A stretch of DNA of 48,241 nucleotides from a bacterium (lineage in GTDB: Bacteria > JACRDZ01 > JAQUKH01), in NCBI GenBank assembly GCA_040754625.1, contig JBFMCF010000128.1, forward strand, positions 1-48,241, given 5' to 3'. Shown in pieces: positions 21,638-47,866 of the stretch; within the stretch, counting starts at the first letter, position 1, and each line of letters opens with the position of its first letter. The notes under the pieces were generated by a model. It did not search any database and had not been told where the DNA came from. It saw only the letters and a list, made by a program, of their open reading frames with translations. Both the position numbers and the translations under genes were made by a program.

Positions 21638-22315
21638 TCACTTTGTGAATAGATCTTTCCTTTTCTTCAAAGTTTCCCGTATACTCTGCTTTTTCCTCCA
21701 TGATTCTATCTCCTTATGGTTACCCGATAAAAGAACATCCGGGACCCGCATTTTCCTGAATTCCCGGGGCCTTGTATATTGGGGATATTCCAGTAACCCA
21801 TCGCTAAAAGATTCATTTTTTACGGAATCTTCGCTTCCAAGCACTCCCGGGACAAACCGCACAACCGAATCGATTAAAACCATCGCGGGCAATTCGCCGC
21901 CTGTGAGAATAAAATCTCCGATTGAAATCTCTTCATCAATAAATTCTTTTACTCTCTCGTCAATTCCTTCATAATGGCCGCATATCAAAATTAACCGTTT
22001 TTTCCTGCTTAAACCTTTTACTGATCGGACATCAAGCCTTTTCCCCCTGGGACTCAATAAAACCACCCATGTATCTTTTCTTTTATACTTAACCGCTTTC
22101 AAACATTCATAGATGGGTTCAACCTTCATAATCATTCCGGGGCCGCCGCCATAAGGATAATCATCAACCGTTTTGTGTTTATCTTTAGAATAATCCCTTA
22201 TGTTATGAACATCAATCTTAACCAGGCGTTTTTCCTGCGCCCTTTTAATTATACTCTCCCCGAGAACATTTTTAAACATATCAGGGAAAATCGTCAATAT
22301 TTCAAAATGGATCAT
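21638..22315 (-). CDS. trmD: tRNA (guanine-N1)-methyltransferase
   Basis: About 225 residues, SPOUT fold; methylates G37 of tRNA to prevent frameshifting. It has IHFEILTIFPDMF, DDYPYGGGPGMIMKVEPI, LLSPRGKRL, LICGHYEGIDERV, the knot loop EISIGDFILTGGELPAMVLID and YTRPREFR. Start 22315 (MIHFEIL) matches the family N-terminus; the reading frame remains open upstream but that stretch does not resemble TrmD. rimM, usually just upstream, is missing. Confidence 0.95.
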   Translation of the reverse strand: MIHFEILTIFPDMFKNVLGESIIKRAQEKRLVKIDVHNIRDYSKDKHKTVDDYPYGGGPGMIMKVEPIYECLKAVKYKRKDTWVVLLSPRGKRLDVRSVKGLSRKKRLILICGHYEGIDERVKEFIDEEISIGDFILTGGELPAMVLIDSVVRFVPGVLGSEDSVKNESFSDGLLEYPQYTRPREFRKMRVPDVLLSGNHKEIESWRKKQSIRETLKKRKDLFTK

Positions 22316-22490
22316 ACGAATTACCTTGGGAAACCTCCCCCGGAATTTTCTGCCGGATCTGTATCTATAATATATCCGGCCCTTTAGCAACAAAATTCCC
22401 TTGAAGCTCCGCATTAATGATACAGTGTTTCCCCTGGAATATTTACCTCAAATTTTCTATACCCTGCCGGGAAATTTATACCGGTAATTT

Positions 22491-22733
22491 TTAACGGGGC
22501 TTGTTTTTTAATAATAAATTTTTTACCGTATCCGAGGGCTTTGCTCCGACGCCAATCCAATAATTTATCCGGTCGATATTAAGCTTAATATCCGCAGGAT
22601 TTGTCAAAGGATTATAATAACCAAGTTCTTCAATAAATTTACCGCCTAACGCCCTGGTAGATTCCGCCGCCACAACACGAAAAAACGGCCTGTTCCTAGT
22701 ACCCATTCGTTTTAGTCTAATCTTTACCGCCAA
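22491..22733 (-). CDS. rpsP: Ribosomal protein bS16
   Basis: An 80-residue protein with VKIRLKRMGTRNRPFFRVVAAES and IEELGYYNPLTNP, diagnostic of bS16. The start codon is TTG, balanced by a near-perfect AAGGAGGTGATC ribosome site 4-8 nt upstream, the longest Shine-Dalgarno in the window. It follows ffh, the typical ffh-rpsP order. Confidence 0.95.
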   Translation of the reverse strand: MAVKIRLKRMGTRNRPFFRVVAAESTRALGGKFIEELGYYNPLTNPADIKLNIDRINYWIGVGAKPSDTVKNLLLKNKPR

Positions 22734-22804: not shown

Positions 22805-24136
22805 TTATCTATTCGCCATCATATTTTTCAAACCACCCATATCGAATTTATTGCCTTTGCCGAATTGTTTCATCATCTTTTTCATCTGTTCATAACGGTT
22901 AATCAGCTGATTTACCTGCTGGACCGTTGTCCCGCTGCCGTTTGCAATCCTTATACGGCGCGAGCCGTTTAAAATCCTCGGGTTTAATCTTTCTATTTTT
23001 GTCATGGAACTAAGTATCGCCTCCATAGCCTTCATATTGTTTTTTTCCGCCGCGCCGATGTTAATTTTATTGCCTAACCCCGGAATCAATTTAACTACCT
23101 GTTCCATCGCGCCTAATCTTTTCATATTTTTAAACTGTTCTCTCATATCTTCCAGCGTAAATTCATTTTTTCTAAACTTCTGTTCGAGTTTTTTCGCCTC
23201 GTCTTCAGAATAAATTTTTTCCACTTTTTCAGCCAGCGTAAAAATATCCCCCATTCCTAAAATCCGGCTGGCCATACGGTCCGGGTAAAACGAATCTAAA
23301 TCATCAAGCTTTTCACCGATACCGACAAACTTAATCGGGCGCTGGACAATGGAACGGAGCGAAAGCGCGGCACCTCCCCTCGCATCACCGTCAAGTTTTG
23401 TAAGAATCACGCCGTCAATCCCTAATAACGAATTAAACTCTTTCGCCGCGGCAACCGCCTGCTGGCCGGTCATAGAATCAACTACCAAAAGAATTTCATG
23501 GGGCGAAAGCCCTGCTTTTAATTCCCGCAACTCATTCATCATCTCTTCATCAATATGGAGGCGTCCCGCAGTATCAAGCAGCACACAATCATAATTATTT
23601 TCACGGGCATGTTTTAAACTATTTTTTGCGATATTTAAACAATTTCTACTTTCCTCCAGATAAACCGGGATATTGCAGGATTCCCCTAAAATTTTAAGCT
23701 GTTCCTGCGCCGCGGGACGGTATATATCCAGTCCAACCATAAGTGGGCGGTGCCCGTTTTTGGACAAATGGACCGCTAATTTCGCTGTCGTAGTAGTTTT
23801 ACCTGTTCCCTGGAGGCCTGTCATCATAATAACAGTCGGTAAACTATCCGCGAATTTTATTCTCGACACATTATCACCCATTAAATGGGTCAATTCATCC
23901 GCGACATACTTCATAACAAGCTGGGCCGGAGTAACACTGGAAAGGACCTCCTGCCCCAATGCCCTGGATTTTATCACCTCTATGAAATCTTTGGTCACCC
24001 TGTAATCAACATCCGCCTCGAGAAACGCGACCCTGATTTCTCTTAAAATATCTTCAATGTTCTTTTCATTCAGTTTGTTCTGGCCTAACAGCTTACGTGT
24101 AACATCCTGCAGGCGGTTTGACAAATTTTCAAACAT
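22805..24136 (-). CDS. ffh: Signal recognition particle protein Ffh
   Basis: A 443-residue SRP54 GTPase that targets nascent membrane proteins. The N domain (1-90) is followed by the G domain with GLQGTGKTTTTAKLA (G1), LDIYRPAAQEQL, LLDTAGRLHIDEEMM (G3), TKLDGDARGGAALS (G4) and FVGIGEKLDDL; the Met-rich M domain covers the last 120 residues with SRRIRIANGSGT, the SRP RNA-binding segment. No 4.5S RNA was recognised nearby. It overlaps ylxM by 8 bp. Confidence 0.97.
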   Translation of the reverse strand: MFENLSNRLQDVTRKLLGQNKLNEKNIEDILREIRVAFLEADVDYRVTKDFIEVIKSRALGQEVLSSVTPAQLVMKYVADELTHLMGDNVSRIKFADSLPTVIMMTGLQGTGKTTTTAKLAVHLSKNGHRPLMVGLDIYRPAAQEQLKILGESCNIPVYLEESRNCLNIAKNSLKHARENNYDCVLLDTAGRLHIDEEMMNELRELKAGLSPHEILLVVDSMTGQQAVAAAKEFNSLLGIDGVILTKLDGDARGGAALSLRSIVQRPIKFVGIGEKLDDLDSFYPDRMASRILGMGDIFTLAEKVEKIYSEDEAKKLEQKFRKNEFTLEDMREQFKNMKRLGAMEQVVKLIPGLGNKINIGAAEKNNMKAMEAILSSMTKIERLNPRILNGSRRIRIANGSGTTVQQVNQLINRYEQMKKMMKQFGKGNKFDMGGLKNMMANR

Positions 24137-24392
24137 TTTTCTTCCTTTTCATTTTGCTGAACTTATTATGATAAAGCTTCAAACTGGATTCGTATTTTTC
24201 CAAATCCTTCGTTATGTTTTTTATGCTGAAGTAGACTGCCTGTCTTGTCACTTTTAATTTTTCCGCAATCTCAGAAAGATTTAAATCGCAATTAAAATAA
24301 AGATTTGCCGCCTTCTGTTGTTTTTTAGTTAAAAGATTACCGTAAAAATCAAACAGCAGGCTGTTGCGGACTTGTTTATCTAAAGCTTTCAT
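24129..24392 (-). CDS. YlxM-like helix-turn-helix protein
   Basis: An 87-residue protein with LTKKQQKAANLYFNCDLNLSEIAEKLKVTRQAVYFSIKNI, a sigma-region-4-like helix-turn-helix found in the YlxM/p13 family. YlxM in Firmicutes and relatives is encoded just before ffh and affects SRP GTPase activity. The gene starts the long leftward block, with its own promoter and a 9-bp inverted repeat between promoter and ATG. It might bind that repeat (inference). Confidence 0.88.
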   Translation of the reverse strand: MKALDKQVRNSLLFDFYGNLLTKKQQKAANLYFNCDLNLSEIAEKLKVTRQAVYFSIKNITKDLEKYESSLKLYHNKFSKMKRKKNV

Positions 24393-24461: not shown

Positions 24462-24490
24462 TTGACGGAGTTTTTTATGTGGCATATAGA
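24462..24490 (+). promoter_or_regulatory. Consensus-like sigma70 promoter for an ncRNA
   Basis: TTGACG (24462-24467), 17-nt spacer, TATAGA (24485-24490), divergent from the ylxM promoter with the two -35 elements 13 bp apart. No open reading frame follows on this strand; a structured region with a terminator does. Confidence 0.75.
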
Positions 24491-24497
24491 TTTTAAA

Positions 24498-24662
24498 TAG
24501 AAACGGCCAACGAGGACAAATAAAAAAATATAATCCCCGCTTAGGCCGTCCCGATCAAATGTTGGAGATGAAAAAAAAGGCTAAAATGGGGTGGTGGCCT
24601 TTACAACCGCCGGACTTAAAACGGCCTGGTTTGGTCTCTCTAATCTGATCGGGTTTTTTTTT
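24498..24662 (+). ncRNA. Candidate structured RNA of unknown family
   Basis: From the promoter start point (about 24497) to a T9 run at 24654-24662 there is a compact, multi-stem layout. Stem A is ACGGCC/GGCCGT (24503-24508, 24544-24549) around an A-rich loop. The closing stem CCCGATCA/TGATCGGG (24550-24557, 24646-24653) encloses GAGA/TCTC pairing, AAAGGC/GCCTTT (24576-24581, 24597-24602) and a bulged hairpin AACC-GCCG...CGGC-ct-GGTT (24605-24632), then ends in poly-U, so the terminator stem is the base of the domain. ACGGCC recurs at 24621, allowing a competing fold. It is not recognisably 4.5S, 6S, tmRNA, RNase P or a known riboswitch. A perfect TATAAT at 24529 could give a shorter form. 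Confidence 0.65.
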
Positions 24663-24768: not shown

Positions 24769-24942
24769 TCAAAGGGGATTCTTTGTCGTAATAGTTCCAT
24801 CGGGCAATTCAAAATATAACTTCTTACGCCTGGCGTAAACATTCGGCAATCCCTTTGCCCTATTTTCTTCCTGTGCTTTTCTTACAGCACGATTCCCGAT
24901 TCTTGTAACCTCTAAAAACTTTTCATATGTTTCTTTTTTCAT
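24769..24942 (-). CDS. Small basic protein partnered with the zeta-like P-loop protein
   Basis: A 57-residue protein (starting MKKETYEKFLEV) whose ATG overlaps the stop of the upstream P-loop gene by 4 bases, implying coupled translation. It has a basic helix (IGNRAVRKAQEENRAKG) and a short end with YARRKKLYFELPDGTI, a pattern I recall from small proteins found beside zeta-toxin-like ATPases. It may be the antitoxin or a partner; not experimentally known to me. Confidence 0.7.
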   Translation of the reverse strand: MKKETYEKFLEVTRIGNRAVRKAQEENRAKGLPNVYARRKKLYFELPDGTITTKNPL

Positions 24943-25505
24943 TTTAAATCCTCTTTAAATAAGTCAAAAGACTCATCGTCAACAATTTTATAATTTTCAC
25001 CTTCTCCTGTGGCAACTTGAATGAATTTATCTTCACCATTGTAAAATAAACTCCAGTTATCTGCTGTTTTCTTGTAAATATTCCAAAAATTTTTCTTGCT
25101 TCGCGAAAATCTTCTTATTACGTCTTCATTCGAAATAAAATGCCCGCCTTTACGCACTCTGATCTTTATCCTGTTAATGGCAATTTCAGGGTTATCCACA
25201 AAAATATAATTTAAAATAATTTTATAACCGCTTTTTTTTAACAACTCTATAACTCTTGTAATATATTTACCCGCCAAAGTGGTTTCAATAGCAAAAGATT
25301 TACCTTCACCAGCATATTTTTTTATTTCTTTTAAAAATATCTTTCCTGCTTTAATTCTTACTTTTTCTACTGAGCCGTTTTCTGACAATTCATAAGCGAT
25401 ATCATCCGCATTCAAAAAAGGCAAACCATATCCTTTTATTAATTCTACCCCAACTGTTGTTTTTCCACTGCCATTTGGCCCTGCAATAATATGGATTTCT
25501 TTCAT
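24939..25505 (-). CDS. Zeta-toxin-like P-loop kinase family protein
   Basis: A 188-residue protein with Walker A AGPNGSGKTT (8-17), LNADDIAYEL (zeta-type nucleotide/sugar substrate motif), FAIETTLAGK and an Arg-rich lid (RIKIRVRKGGHFISNEDVIRRFSRS). Zeta toxins phosphorylate UDP-N-acetylglucosamine and poison the cell wall; many relatives with this layout are labelled only as AAA/P-loop proteins. With its 57-residue partner it makes a plausible toxin-antitoxin module. No clear RBS precedes the ATG. Confidence 0.82.
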   Translation of the reverse strand: MKEIHIIAGPNGSGKTTVGVELIKGYGLPFLNADDIAYELSENGSVEKVRIKAGKIFLKEIKKYAGEGKSFAIETTLAGKYITRVIELLKKSGYKIILNYIFVDNPEIAINRIKIRVRKGGHFISNEDVIRRFSRSKKNFWNIYKKTADNWSLFYNGEDKFIQVATGEGENYKIVDDESFDLFKEDLK

Positions 25506-26431: not shown

Positions 26432-26469
26432 TTGACATAATATTTCGCTTTATCGTAATATCAATATTA
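26432..26469 (+). promoter_or_regulatory. Promoter placing the start point at the CoADR ATG (leaderless mRNA?)
   Basis: TTGACA (26432-26437), 18-nt spacer, TAATAT (26456-26461). The expected start point is 26468-26469, which is the A of the ATG, and no Shine-Dalgarno is seen. The -10 is one arm of a palindrome TAATAT-ca-ATATTA (26456-26469), which could be an operator. Confidence 0.65.
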
Positions 26470-28133
26470 TGAAATTACTGATAGTCGGAGGTGTAGCGGG
26501 CGGTGCTGCCGCCGCGGCAAGGGCGAGAAGGCTTGATGAAAATGCCGAAATAATTATTTTTGAGCGCGGCGAATATATCTCATTCGCGAATTGCGGCCTG
26601 CCTTATTACGCCGGCGGCGTGATAAAAGAAAGGAATTCGCTAATTCTCCAGACACCGGAGCATTTTTCAAAAAGATTTAACATTGACGTAAGAATCAACA
26701 GCGAGGTAACCGGCATAAACAGGCAGGATAAAAAAATAACTGTCAAGGACCTGATCAAAAATAAGGAATACGAGGAATCTTACGACAAACTGCTTCTCTC
26801 CCCCGGAGCGAAGCCTGTCATTCCGGCTTTCAGCGGAATTAATCCTGAAGATTTATACGCCGTCCGGACTATACCTGACATAGATAAAATTAAAACAAAG
26901 CTGAAAAGCGATATAAAAAGCGCCTTAATAGTCGGCGGAGGATTTATCGGGCTTGAAATGGCTGAAAATATTATTAAACTGAATATTGAAACTCACTTGA
27001 TAGAAAAACTGGACCAGGCCGCCCCTCCTTTTGACAAAGACATGGCGGTCATCCTCCACAGGGAACTCAGGCATAACGGCGTAAAATTGCATCTGGATGA
27101 AGAAATAGAAAGCATTATTAAAGATAAAAATGAACTTGTCATTAAAACCAAATCCGGTTTAAAGATAAAATCCGGCATGGTTATTTGCGCGATAGGCGTC
27201 CAGCCTGAAACCGGTTTATTTAAAAAAGCGGGCCTTGAAACCGGCGCAAAAGGCGCGCGCGTAAACAACAAAATGCGGACCAGCGATGAAAACATTTACG
27301 CCGCGGGAGATGTCGTTGAAACAAAAAATCCCATAACCGGCGAATATTGGCATGTCCCCCTGGCATGGCCCGCCGCCCGGCAGGCCCTTGTAGCAGTTAA
27401 TAATATATTCGGAATAGAAGATTCTTATTCCGGAAATTACGGCGCTTCCATAGTTAAAGTTTTTTCTTTAACGGCGGCCTCATGCGGGGTAAATGAAAAA
27501 TTGCTTTCAAAAACAAACATAAAATATGAAAAAGTTTACACGCACCCTTATAATCACGCGGGTTATTATCCCGGCGCGTCGCAATTATCATTTAAAATCA
27601 TTTATGAAAAAGATAACGGCAGGATACTGGGCGCGCAGATTATAGGCCGCCAGGGCGTTGATAAATATATGGATGTCCTGTCACTGTCAATAAAACATGG
27701 TTTAACAATGTATGATTTGTCAGAATCCGATTTCTGCTACGCTCCTCAATACAGCTCCGCGAAAAACGCGTTGAATTTCGCGGGAATGATCGCGGTCAAT
27801 CATTTAAGAGGGCTGGCAAAACTAATTCACTGGGAAGATGTTTTAGACACGGATTTCCTGCTTGACGTCCGGACACCTATTGAATATAAAAACGGCACCG
27901 TTAAAAACGCGTATAATATTCCAATTGACGATTTAAGAAAAAGGCTTGATGAAATACCGAGAGACAAGCGTATTCTTGCGTTCTGCCAGGTTGGAATAAG
28001 GACGCATAATTCTGTAAGGATCCTTGTCCAGAACGGTTTCAACGCTTATAATTTATCCGGGGGATATAAAACATACCTGAATTATATAGAGGCAAAACCC
28101 GGCACCGCGCCGGACATTCCTGCCGGCGGCTAA
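26469..28133 (+). CDS. CoA-disulfide reductase/NAD(P)H oxidase fused to rhodanese
   Basis: A 554-residue flavoprotein. Residues 5-12 give the FAD motif (VGGVAGGAAAA), C42 in SFANCGLPYY is the redox Cys of CoADR/NADH oxidases, VGGGFIGLEMAEN is the NAD-binding motif and YAAGDVVE the second FAD motif. The last ~95 residues form a rhodanese domain with DVRTPIEY and the active C506 in FCQVGIRTH. CoADR-Rhd proteins act in CoA/polysulfide redox, as in Shewanella and Bacillus. This fits a microbe handling sulfur under low oxygen. Confidence 0.95.
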   Translation: MKLLIVGGVAGGAAAAARARRLDENAEIIIFERGEYISFANCGLPYYAGGVIKERNSLILQTPEHFSKRFNIDVRINSEVTGINRQDKKITVKDLIKNKEYEESYDKLLLSPGAKPVIPAFSGINPEDLYAVRTIPDIDKIKTKLKSDIKSALIVGGGFIGLEMAENIIKLNIETHLIEKLDQAAPPFDKDMAVILHRELRHNGVKLHLDEEIESIIKDKNELVIKTKSGLKIKSGMVICAIGVQPETGLFKKAGLETGAKGARVNNKMRTSDENIYAAGDVVETKNPITGEYWHVPLAWPAARQALVAVNNIFGIEDSYSGNYGASIVKVFSLTAASCGVNEKLLSKTNIKYEKVYTHPYNHAGYYPGASQLSFKIIYEKDNGRILGAQIIGRQGVDKYMDVLSLSIKHGLTMYDLSESDFCYAPQYSSAKNALNFAGMIAVNHLRGLAKLIHWEDVLDTDFLLDVRTPIEYKNGTVKNAYNIPIDDLRKRLDEIPRDKRILAFCQVGIRTHNSVRILVQNGFNAYNLSGGYKTYLNYIEAKPGTAPDIPAGG

Positions 28134-46785: not shown

Positions 46786-46872
46786 ACGCGTAAACGTGTA
46801 TATGCGTTGATGCGTATATGCGCTAAAATTCTTAATACGCGTCTATGCTTCACACTTCAACGCTTCTACGCA
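46786..46872. repeat. Degenerate 7-8-nt repeats between riboswitch and terminator
   Basis: Runs such as ACGCGTA, AACGTGT, ATATGCG, TTGATGCG, TATATGCG and, further on, ACGCGTCT, ATGCTTCA, ACGCTTCT. Unit lengths alternate 7 and 8. Part lies within the expected expression platform. Confidence 0.6.
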
Positions 46873-46875
46873 AGT

Positions 46876-47080
46876 ACAGGCAGGTATTCTGGCTTTCCGG
46901 CACTTTCAGCAGCCTTCCCACCCCGATTTCACATCGGGACAGTGGCAAACAATCGCTAAAAGCTTCCTCTTCTCTTTCACGCATCCACGCTTTTGCGCTT
47001 CTACGCATCATCTCTTCAAAAAGGACCGGATTACAGCGGCGGGACCGCGCCGGTTTCCAACCGGCTTCCCTGAACCTGTA
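46876..47080 (-). promoter_or_regulatory. Cobalamin riboswitch controlling the cob/btu operon
   Basis: On the minus strand: ACAGGTTCAGGGAAG, CCGGTTGGAAACCGG stem, core CGCGGTCCCGCCGCTGTAATCC, GCCACTG/GGTGGGAAGGC region, then GCCAGAATACCTGCCTGT; ACAGG pairs with CCTGT as P1. This matches the AdoCbl-type aptamer. The segment between GTAATCCGGTCC and GCCACTG is about 85 nt, roughly three times the usual, and contains an 8-nt tandem array. It is followed by the attenuator and cobU. Confidence 0.92.
46979..47010. repeat. Octamer tandem array inside the riboswitch variable arm
   Basis: Four 8-nt units: ACGCATCC, ACGCTTTT, GCGCTTCT, ACGCATCA. On the RNA it lies in the peripheral loop, outside the cobalamin-binding core. 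Confidence 0.75.
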
Positions 47081-47178
47081 ATTTCAAAAATTATTATATA
47101 TAAAAACAAAAAAAAGTCAATTAAAATTAATGGATATCTTGCCTAAAATCCTTTTTGATATTTTTTCCCAAATATCAC

Positions 47179-47240: not shown

Positions 47241-47483
47241 ATGTTAAGAAAAATATGTTCTGTCGGCAATAGCCAGGGGGTTTTGATACCAAAAGAAATC
47301 CTTAAAAAAGCGAATTTGACAACCGGCGATGAAATTGAATTAAGTTTTGAGGAGAAAAACAAAAAAATTATCATAAAGTCTGTAAAATCTTATCACGAAC
47401 CGATAGATCCGGAGTTCGCGTCACAGGTCAAGGAATTTATCCAGCAATATAAACCCGCTTTGAAAGAACTTGCGAAAAAATGA
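47241..47483 (+). CDS. SpoVT/AbrB-type antitoxin
   Basis: An 80-residue protein. Residues 1-45 (RKICSVGNSQGVLIPKEILKKANLTTGDEIELSFEE) form the swapped-hairpin AbrB/MazE DNA-binding fold; the C-terminal 35 residues (about 48-80), helical and charged, should wrap the toxin. GGAGG sits 7 nt before the ATG. The stop overlaps the Doc start by 4 bases. Confidence 0.92.
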   Translation: MLRKICSVGNSQGVLIPKEILKKANLTTGDEIELSFEEKNKKIIIKSVKSYHEPIDPEFASQVKEFIQQYKPALKELAKK

Positions 47484-47866
47484 AATACCTGACTACTGAA
47501 CAAATTTTATTTATTCATTACCGGTTAATCGAAGAAACCGGCGGGAGCCATGGAGTCAGGGACACCTCACTGCTTAAATCCGCGCAGGCACGCCCTATAT
47601 CAACATTCGGCGGAAATGACCTTTATCCTGATATTTTCACAAAAACCGCCGCATTGACGCATTCATTAATTAAAAATCATCCTTTTATCGATGGCAATAA
47701 AAGAACGGCGATAACTTCCGGCTCGCTTTTCCTGGCACGCAATAATTATTTACTGAAAGCTTCAAATGAAGAACTTGAAAAATTTACTTTGAAAATCGCC
47801 GCCCGGAAAATCCAGATTGAAAAAATCGCGGATTGGTTCAAAAAACATTCAATTATAAAAAATTAG
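47480..47866 (+). CDS. doc: Doc/Fic-family death-on-curing toxin
   Basis: A 128-residue Fic-fold protein with the signature NHPFIDGNKRTA (H-x-F-x-D-G-N-K-R), as in phage P1 Doc, which phosphorylates EF-Tu. The N-terminus MKYLTTEQILFIHYRLIEETGG is typical. It pairs with an AbrB-type antitoxin instead of Phd, a common variant. Overlapping genes indicate coupled expression. Confidence 0.93.
   Translation: MKYLTTEQILFIHYRLIEETGGSHGVRDTSLLKSAQARPISTFGGNDLYPDIFTKTAALTHSLIKNHPFIDGNKRTAITSGSLFLARNNYLLKASNEELEKFTLKIAARKIQIEKIADWFKKHSIIKN

Follow-up and report, generated by a model that had tools for sequence, protein, structure and literature searches.

Small RNAs are usually assisted by proteins such as Hfq, CsrA and the KH-type chaperones. 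To our knowledge, nearly all described families of sibling sRNAs come from bacteria in culture, of which many have Hfq or CsrA. Sibling sRNAs are homologous RNAs that occur in several copies (reviewed in PMC4211561). CsrB families have multiple copies per genome (PMC6262261). The LhrC1-5 RNAs of Listeria are also multicopy and lie at separate loci, with a 5' stem-loop, a terminator loop and regulation that is largely independent of Hfq; one LhrC copy is located within the operon of an iron protein (PMC13350326).

Here we analysed a window of 48,241 nucleotides, by which we mean the whole stretch of DNA under study, from a bacterium of an uncultured and little-known lineage. An initial annotation had proposed that it carries an unidentified structured non-coding RNA divergent from ylxM-ffh, and this proposal stood; no Rfam family matched the RNA, and its homologues covary. 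We regard the locus as very probably a real RNA gene with its own promoter and terminator, and by comparison with Rfam the predicted RNA is a member of a previously undescribed family. The nearest known kind is the sibling sRNA: each genome has several homologous copies at separate loci, every copy has a promoter and a terminator of its own, and they share a conserved structure with compensatory changes. By this anatomy the family would be of the sibling kind, with a presumed action in trans on presumed targets. It resembles LhrC1-5 in its multiple copies, its separate loci, its 5' stem-loop and terminator and its apparent independence of Hfq. It differs in lacking an Rfam match and in that the CU-rich motifs of LhrC are single-stranded, whereas the CUCU of the new family is paired with GGAG in the terminator stem.

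The RNA gene in the window

As read from the sequence, the gene extends from the start of its promoter at 24462 to the end of its T tract at 24662 and would specify a structured, non-coding RNA of ∼165 nt. The promoter (24462-24490, + strand) was assigned from the sequence and the family consensus, with a -35 element TTGACG at 24462-24467, a 17-nt spacer whose 3' part is a conserved TGGCA (24480-24484), and a -10 element TATAGA at 24485-24490. A promoter with this spacing had been claimed at the outset, and the motif proved to be common to the family, whose consensus is TTGACG-N12-TGGMATATAG with spacers of 16-17 nt, the exceptions being one TTTACG and one TTGACA. Upstream of the -35 the members are about as similar to one another as background, and identity rises to 0.88-0.93 at TGGMATAT. 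From the position of the -10, the transcript is predicted to start at ∼24497. The A-rich 5' leader AAATAGAA (24495-24502, +) is conserved in the members as an AAAYAGAARC-like sequence and is predicted to be single-stranded, with unpaired probabilities of 0.8-1.0.

The 5' hairpin H1 (24503-24549, +), identified from pairing probability and covariation, contains GAGGA in its 5' arm, and its loop is rich in A and U; ACGGCC at 24503 pairs with GGCCGT at 24544 with a probability of 0.88-1.0. The long 3' hairpin H2 (24550-24653, +), found in all seven members of the family, is also the terminator stem. Its basal helix pairs CCCGATCA (24550-24557) with TGATCGGG (24646-24653) on the + strand, the counterpart in one G001 member, G1c, being CCCGATTA/TAATCGGG, and is followed by a T9 tract (24654-24662, +), as a T run follows it in every member. 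The nested stems closed by the terminator that had been described earlier are present at 24550-24662. Above the basal helix the alignment revealed a conserved core on the + strand, comprising a bulge AAT (24558-24560) and GTTGGAGA (24561-24568) on the 5' side and TCTCTAAT (24637-24644) on the 3' side. The AU of the bulge, GGAG and CTCT are invariant in 7/7 members, as is the G24564-U24641 wobble, so that the family core can be written UUGGAGA/UCUCUAA with an invariant G-U and an AU-containing bulge, inside the terminator hairpin. Pairing statistics for helices 5/6 define an upper helix of AGGCU (24578-24582) with GGCCU (24623-24627, +), GGGCU/AGCCU at the level of the family, which encloses a variable apical hairpin (24592-24612, +).

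The earlier claim that the transcript contains no ORF was borne out, as there is none of at least 60 aa and the longest has 29 aa. It is very improbable that the transcript instead encodes a small protein, beginning MLEMKKKAK... at 24559. An ATG followed by similar residues occurs in four members (MLEMKKKAK, MLEVKKGLK, MLETEKRAK and MSEMITRLK), but it falls at the stem bulge, is replaced by ATA in 3/7 members and has no Shine-Dalgarno sequence by eye, and the reading frames range from 14 to 29 aa with nothing common in their C-termini.

Neither of these two signals was listed by simple scanners: the -10 of the promoter ends in A where the rule demands T, and the loop of the terminator is far larger than the scanner allows. 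The predicted fold of the window copy (-56.1 kcal/mol, z -2.31) is modestly unusual, 4 of 200 shuffled sequences being equally good. With a modest single-sequence fold and silent scanners, the case must rest on homologues, and the evidence we consider decisive is comparative: a second copy, an orthologue, seven members in all and compensatory changes.

Family members and covariation

A DNA search of the window genome (G000; 2.75 Mb, 98% complete) identified a second copy, G0b, with 77% identity on contig C23, and an orthologue 76% identical to the window copy was found in G001, the only other sequenced genome of the same genus (MAG STD1_102). A further copy was recovered with a core pattern. 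A covariance model built from the first four copies (R1) led to further members, and a second model (R2) was built from seven; R1 had scored the two d-type members at 27.7 and 36 bits, and they were then included in the model. With R2 the seven members score 117-160 bits. Three are in G000, namely G0a (C128, the window), G0b (C23) and G0c (C25), and four in G001, namely G1a (C46, which is JAQUKH010000046.1 of isolate STD1_102), G1b (C1), G1c (C7) and G1d (C21). By sequence they are of a type (G0a, G0b, G1a), b/c type (G1b, G1c) or d type (G0c, G1d), and all seven share the unusually well conserved promoter, the A-rich 5' leader, the 5' hairpin and the terminator hairpin with its invariant core. 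Seven convincing members were thus found in two genomes, and R2 gave no other convincing match among 60 genomes, which comprised G000, G001 and 58 others, two of them from the same phylum.

Several weaker hits were discarded. On inspection, weak model matches at G001:C29, G000:C119, G000:C41 and G003:C178 were judged to be chance, as were an attenuator-like hairpin at G000:C95 and a 31-nt match in G053; three matches of viral contigs to the promoter/leader pattern were chance too. A pattern scan of genome contigs was swamped by Pseudomonas repeats with the same 18-mer and gave one useful match, JAQUKH010000046.1. This 18-mer, CCCGRTCANATGTNGGAG, occurs frequently in genomes of Pseudomonas (loci L018-L133), where it is probably part of REP-type repeats, and is unrelated to the sRNA family.

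It had been reasoned that an absence of covariation in homologues would speak against the RNA. In the alignment of the seven sequences 89% of cells are paired and 13 of 32 pairs show a double change, and the covariation score was reached by none of 500 shuffles. When partners were slid as a control, pairing fell to 31-51%. The outer and inner helices of H1 (helices 1 and 2) covary; helix 5 has 96.4% of its cells paired and double changes in 3 of its 4 pairs, and helix 6 has 75% paired. RNAalifold independently predicts the same 3' hairpin, and does not predict the 5' hairpin, which is not in the same register in all types. Since only two species carry the RNA and the seven sequences are partly paralogues, these statistics are supportive, not final.

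These comparisons also bear on whether the sequence is a mobile or MITE-like repeat and not a functional RNA, which we think highly unlikely. The copies do lie at unrelated places in two genomes; they differ by compensatory changes, however, have no terminal inverted repeats at their ends by eye, and are syntenic between the species at two loci (the a type by an FAH hydrolase gene, the d type near ResB), which are therefore old and retained.

Gene neighbourhoods and comparison with 4.5S and 6S RNAs

In the window the RNA is divergent from ylxM (24129-24392, −), which encodes a UPF0122 HTH protein (PF04297, 80 bits) and has its own divergent promoter (24448-24421, −; promoter scanner), and from ffh (22805-24136, −), which encodes SRP54 (PF00448/PF02978/PF02881); both genes are outside the RNA gene. 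This position had suggested a link to SRP, and the ffh neighbour in G000 is what the RNA has in common with the bacterial small SRP RNA (RF00169). The architecture differs, however, there is no match of gathering score to RF00169 at the RNA, and the 4.5S RNA of the genome is located elsewhere (G000:C33:9707-9788), where it scores 49.5 bits (cut-off 40). Nor does the place by ffh persist: the G001 orthologue, G1a, keeps on one side the convergent FAH hydrolase, followed by a CoA-disulphide reductase, while its upstream genes are unrelated and do not include ylxM-ffh, and the other copies are likewise away from this pair. On the grounds of the 4.5S RNA elsewhere and of synteny we regard an SRP RNA or accessory SRP RNA as refuted. 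Viral contigs yielded no ffh protein.

The RNA had also been compared with a 6S-like regulator or a switch having two exclusive folds, since ACGGCC occurs twice (24503 and 24621) against one GGCCGT (24544). The strings and all coordinates given for them are correct; the second fold is where the proposal fails. When GGCCGT is paired with the second ACGGCC, the fold has -33.5 versus -54.0 kcal/mol, 20.5 kcal/mol worse, with a predicted probability of 0, and this energy led us to reject a two-state switch; by eye, moreover, the b- and d-type members do not preserve the second complement exactly. In length and in its long hairpin the RNA is similar to 6S RNA (RF00013), but the canonical 6S RNA is elsewhere in the genome (G000:C3:24128-24317, 85.7 bits versus a cut-off of 46.4), the new RNA has no gathering-score match to RF00013, and R2 has no match to the 6S loci. 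We therefore give very little credence to a 6S-like RNA polymerase regulator or a switch. Rfam 15 at gathering and relaxed thresholds gave no match at the RNA, only tRNAs in a neighbouring locus and one cobalamin riboswitch elsewhere in the window. The riboswitch (RF00174, 59 bits; 46862-47094, −) precedes a same-strand run of cobalamin-synthesis-like genes, named by eye, from 46638 down to 42916.

The gene downstream is convergent for G0a, G0b, G1a, G1b and G1c, so that these are not 5' leaders. Only the d-type copies have a same-strand gene downstream, and in G001 it encodes a CxxCH cytochrome, directly before which G1d is placed. In both genomes the d-type RNA is near the CcsA-ResB cytochrome-c biogenesis pair, directly downstream of resB in G000 and ∼2 kb past that gene in G001. 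G1b lies divergently to ccmE-ccmF-ccmH, beyond which are genes for an ABC protein and another cytochrome-c assembly protein, together with ccmB. That two independent loci of about five lie beside cytochrome-c maturation genes is unlikely by chance; the adjacency was noticed after the fact and is treated as a lead. Only the neighbourhood suggests a link to respiration and cytochrome c.

Other genes were noted in passing. A Zeta-toxin-like P-loop gene in the window (24771-25505, −; PF06414, 32 bits) is followed by a 57-aa ORF that by eye may be its partner; the corresponding site in G001 lacks this gene, and the RNA there lies directly beside the FAH gene. A Fic/Doc-like ORF of 128 aa (47480-47866, +) was seen by eye near the contig end. 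CoA-disulphide reductases with a rhodanese domain are encoded at 26469-28133 (+) of the window and at L188:10037-12436 (−), the G001 homologue having extra C-terminal TusA and DsrE domains. In the rpsP-trmD-rplS cluster of the window (21638-22733, −), khpA (ylqC) and rimM, which normally lie between rpsP and trmD, are missing.

Candidate protein partners and mode of action

Among the four genomes compared from the phylum (G000-G003), Hfq (PF17209) was not found, although it was found in 5 control genomes. CsrA (PF02599) was not found in G000 or G001 and was found in G002, G003 and the E. coli, B. subtilis and T. maritima controls, while KhpA/B was not found in G000 or G001, with positive controls. 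An assembly gap could hide one such protein, but this is not likely in both genomes. An Hfq-dependent sRNA was rejected since Hfq was not found in the host, and so, with CsrA not found there, was a CsrA sponge of the CsrB/RsmY kind. The family shares with CsrB/RsmY several copies per genome and the occurrence of GGA motifs. It differs in that CsrA was not found in G000/G001 and in that its conserved GGAG is paired and present once per RNA, in place of GGA repeated in hairpin loops.

On balance we favour a stand-alone sigma-70-type sRNA gene of a new sibling family that acts, more likely than not, by base pairing in trans without Hfq. Through the promoter they have in common, the copies would be co-transcribed in response to a single signal, and each RNA would fold into the 5' hairpin and the long terminator hairpin. 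The family would then act in trans, most likely by pairing of the exposed A-rich leader and variable loops with mRNAs, and the invariant core by the terminator, with its AU bulge and GGAG/CUCU, may be a common element for stability or protein docking. No convincing target emerged from a rough cofold interaction scan that covered 57-58 nearby genes in each genome.

Core invariance at paired positions equally suggests a protein partner. We therefore also considered a family of sequestering or scaffolding RNAs in which the AU/GGAG-CUCU bulged stem docks a protein and the apical parts vary freely, so that the RNA would work as 6S or CsrB RNAs do, for another protein; this seems to us possible and less probable than base pairing. 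It would account for the strongest invariance lying in the paired core, including the G-U wobble and the AU bulge, while the loops vary, as well as for multiple copies as in CsrB families, and Hfq, not having been found, would not be there to assist pairing. On the other hand, there is a single core per RNA versus the repeated sites of CsrB, CsrA itself was not found, and a terminator stem may also be invariant because of its role in termination or because the copies are recent paralogues.

In a more speculative reading, which we hold to be rather unlikely, three to four co-expressed siblings would form a regulon tying cytochrome-c maturation and respiration to one signal, with the core recruiting a yet-unfound RNA-binding protein in a host without detected Hfq, CsrA or KhpA/B. 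With two loci lying by cytochrome-c maturation clusters, the idea of a respiratory regulon can be tested. The family is well supported and has no Rfam entry, and its lineage is one where three usual sRNA-binding proteins were searched for and not detected; for that reason it is also a concrete bait with which to look for a different protein partner of sRNAs.

Outside the family members, matches to the promoter pattern in the genome were not clearly above control. Two individual strings in G001 are recorded here. At L173 (G001:C5:59849-59873, −) the promoter and leader of the sRNA occur almost as they do in G1c (TTGACGATTAAAATATTATGGAATACATAATAAACAGG); they stand before unrelated sequence with a strong Shine-Dalgarno sequence and a 26-codon hydrophobic ORF downstream, and would represent either a degenerate copy or a recruited promoter. 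At L176 (G001:C15:41525-41549, +) a similar promoter string, TTGACG..TTATGGAATATAAA, precedes a type IV pilin-like gene.
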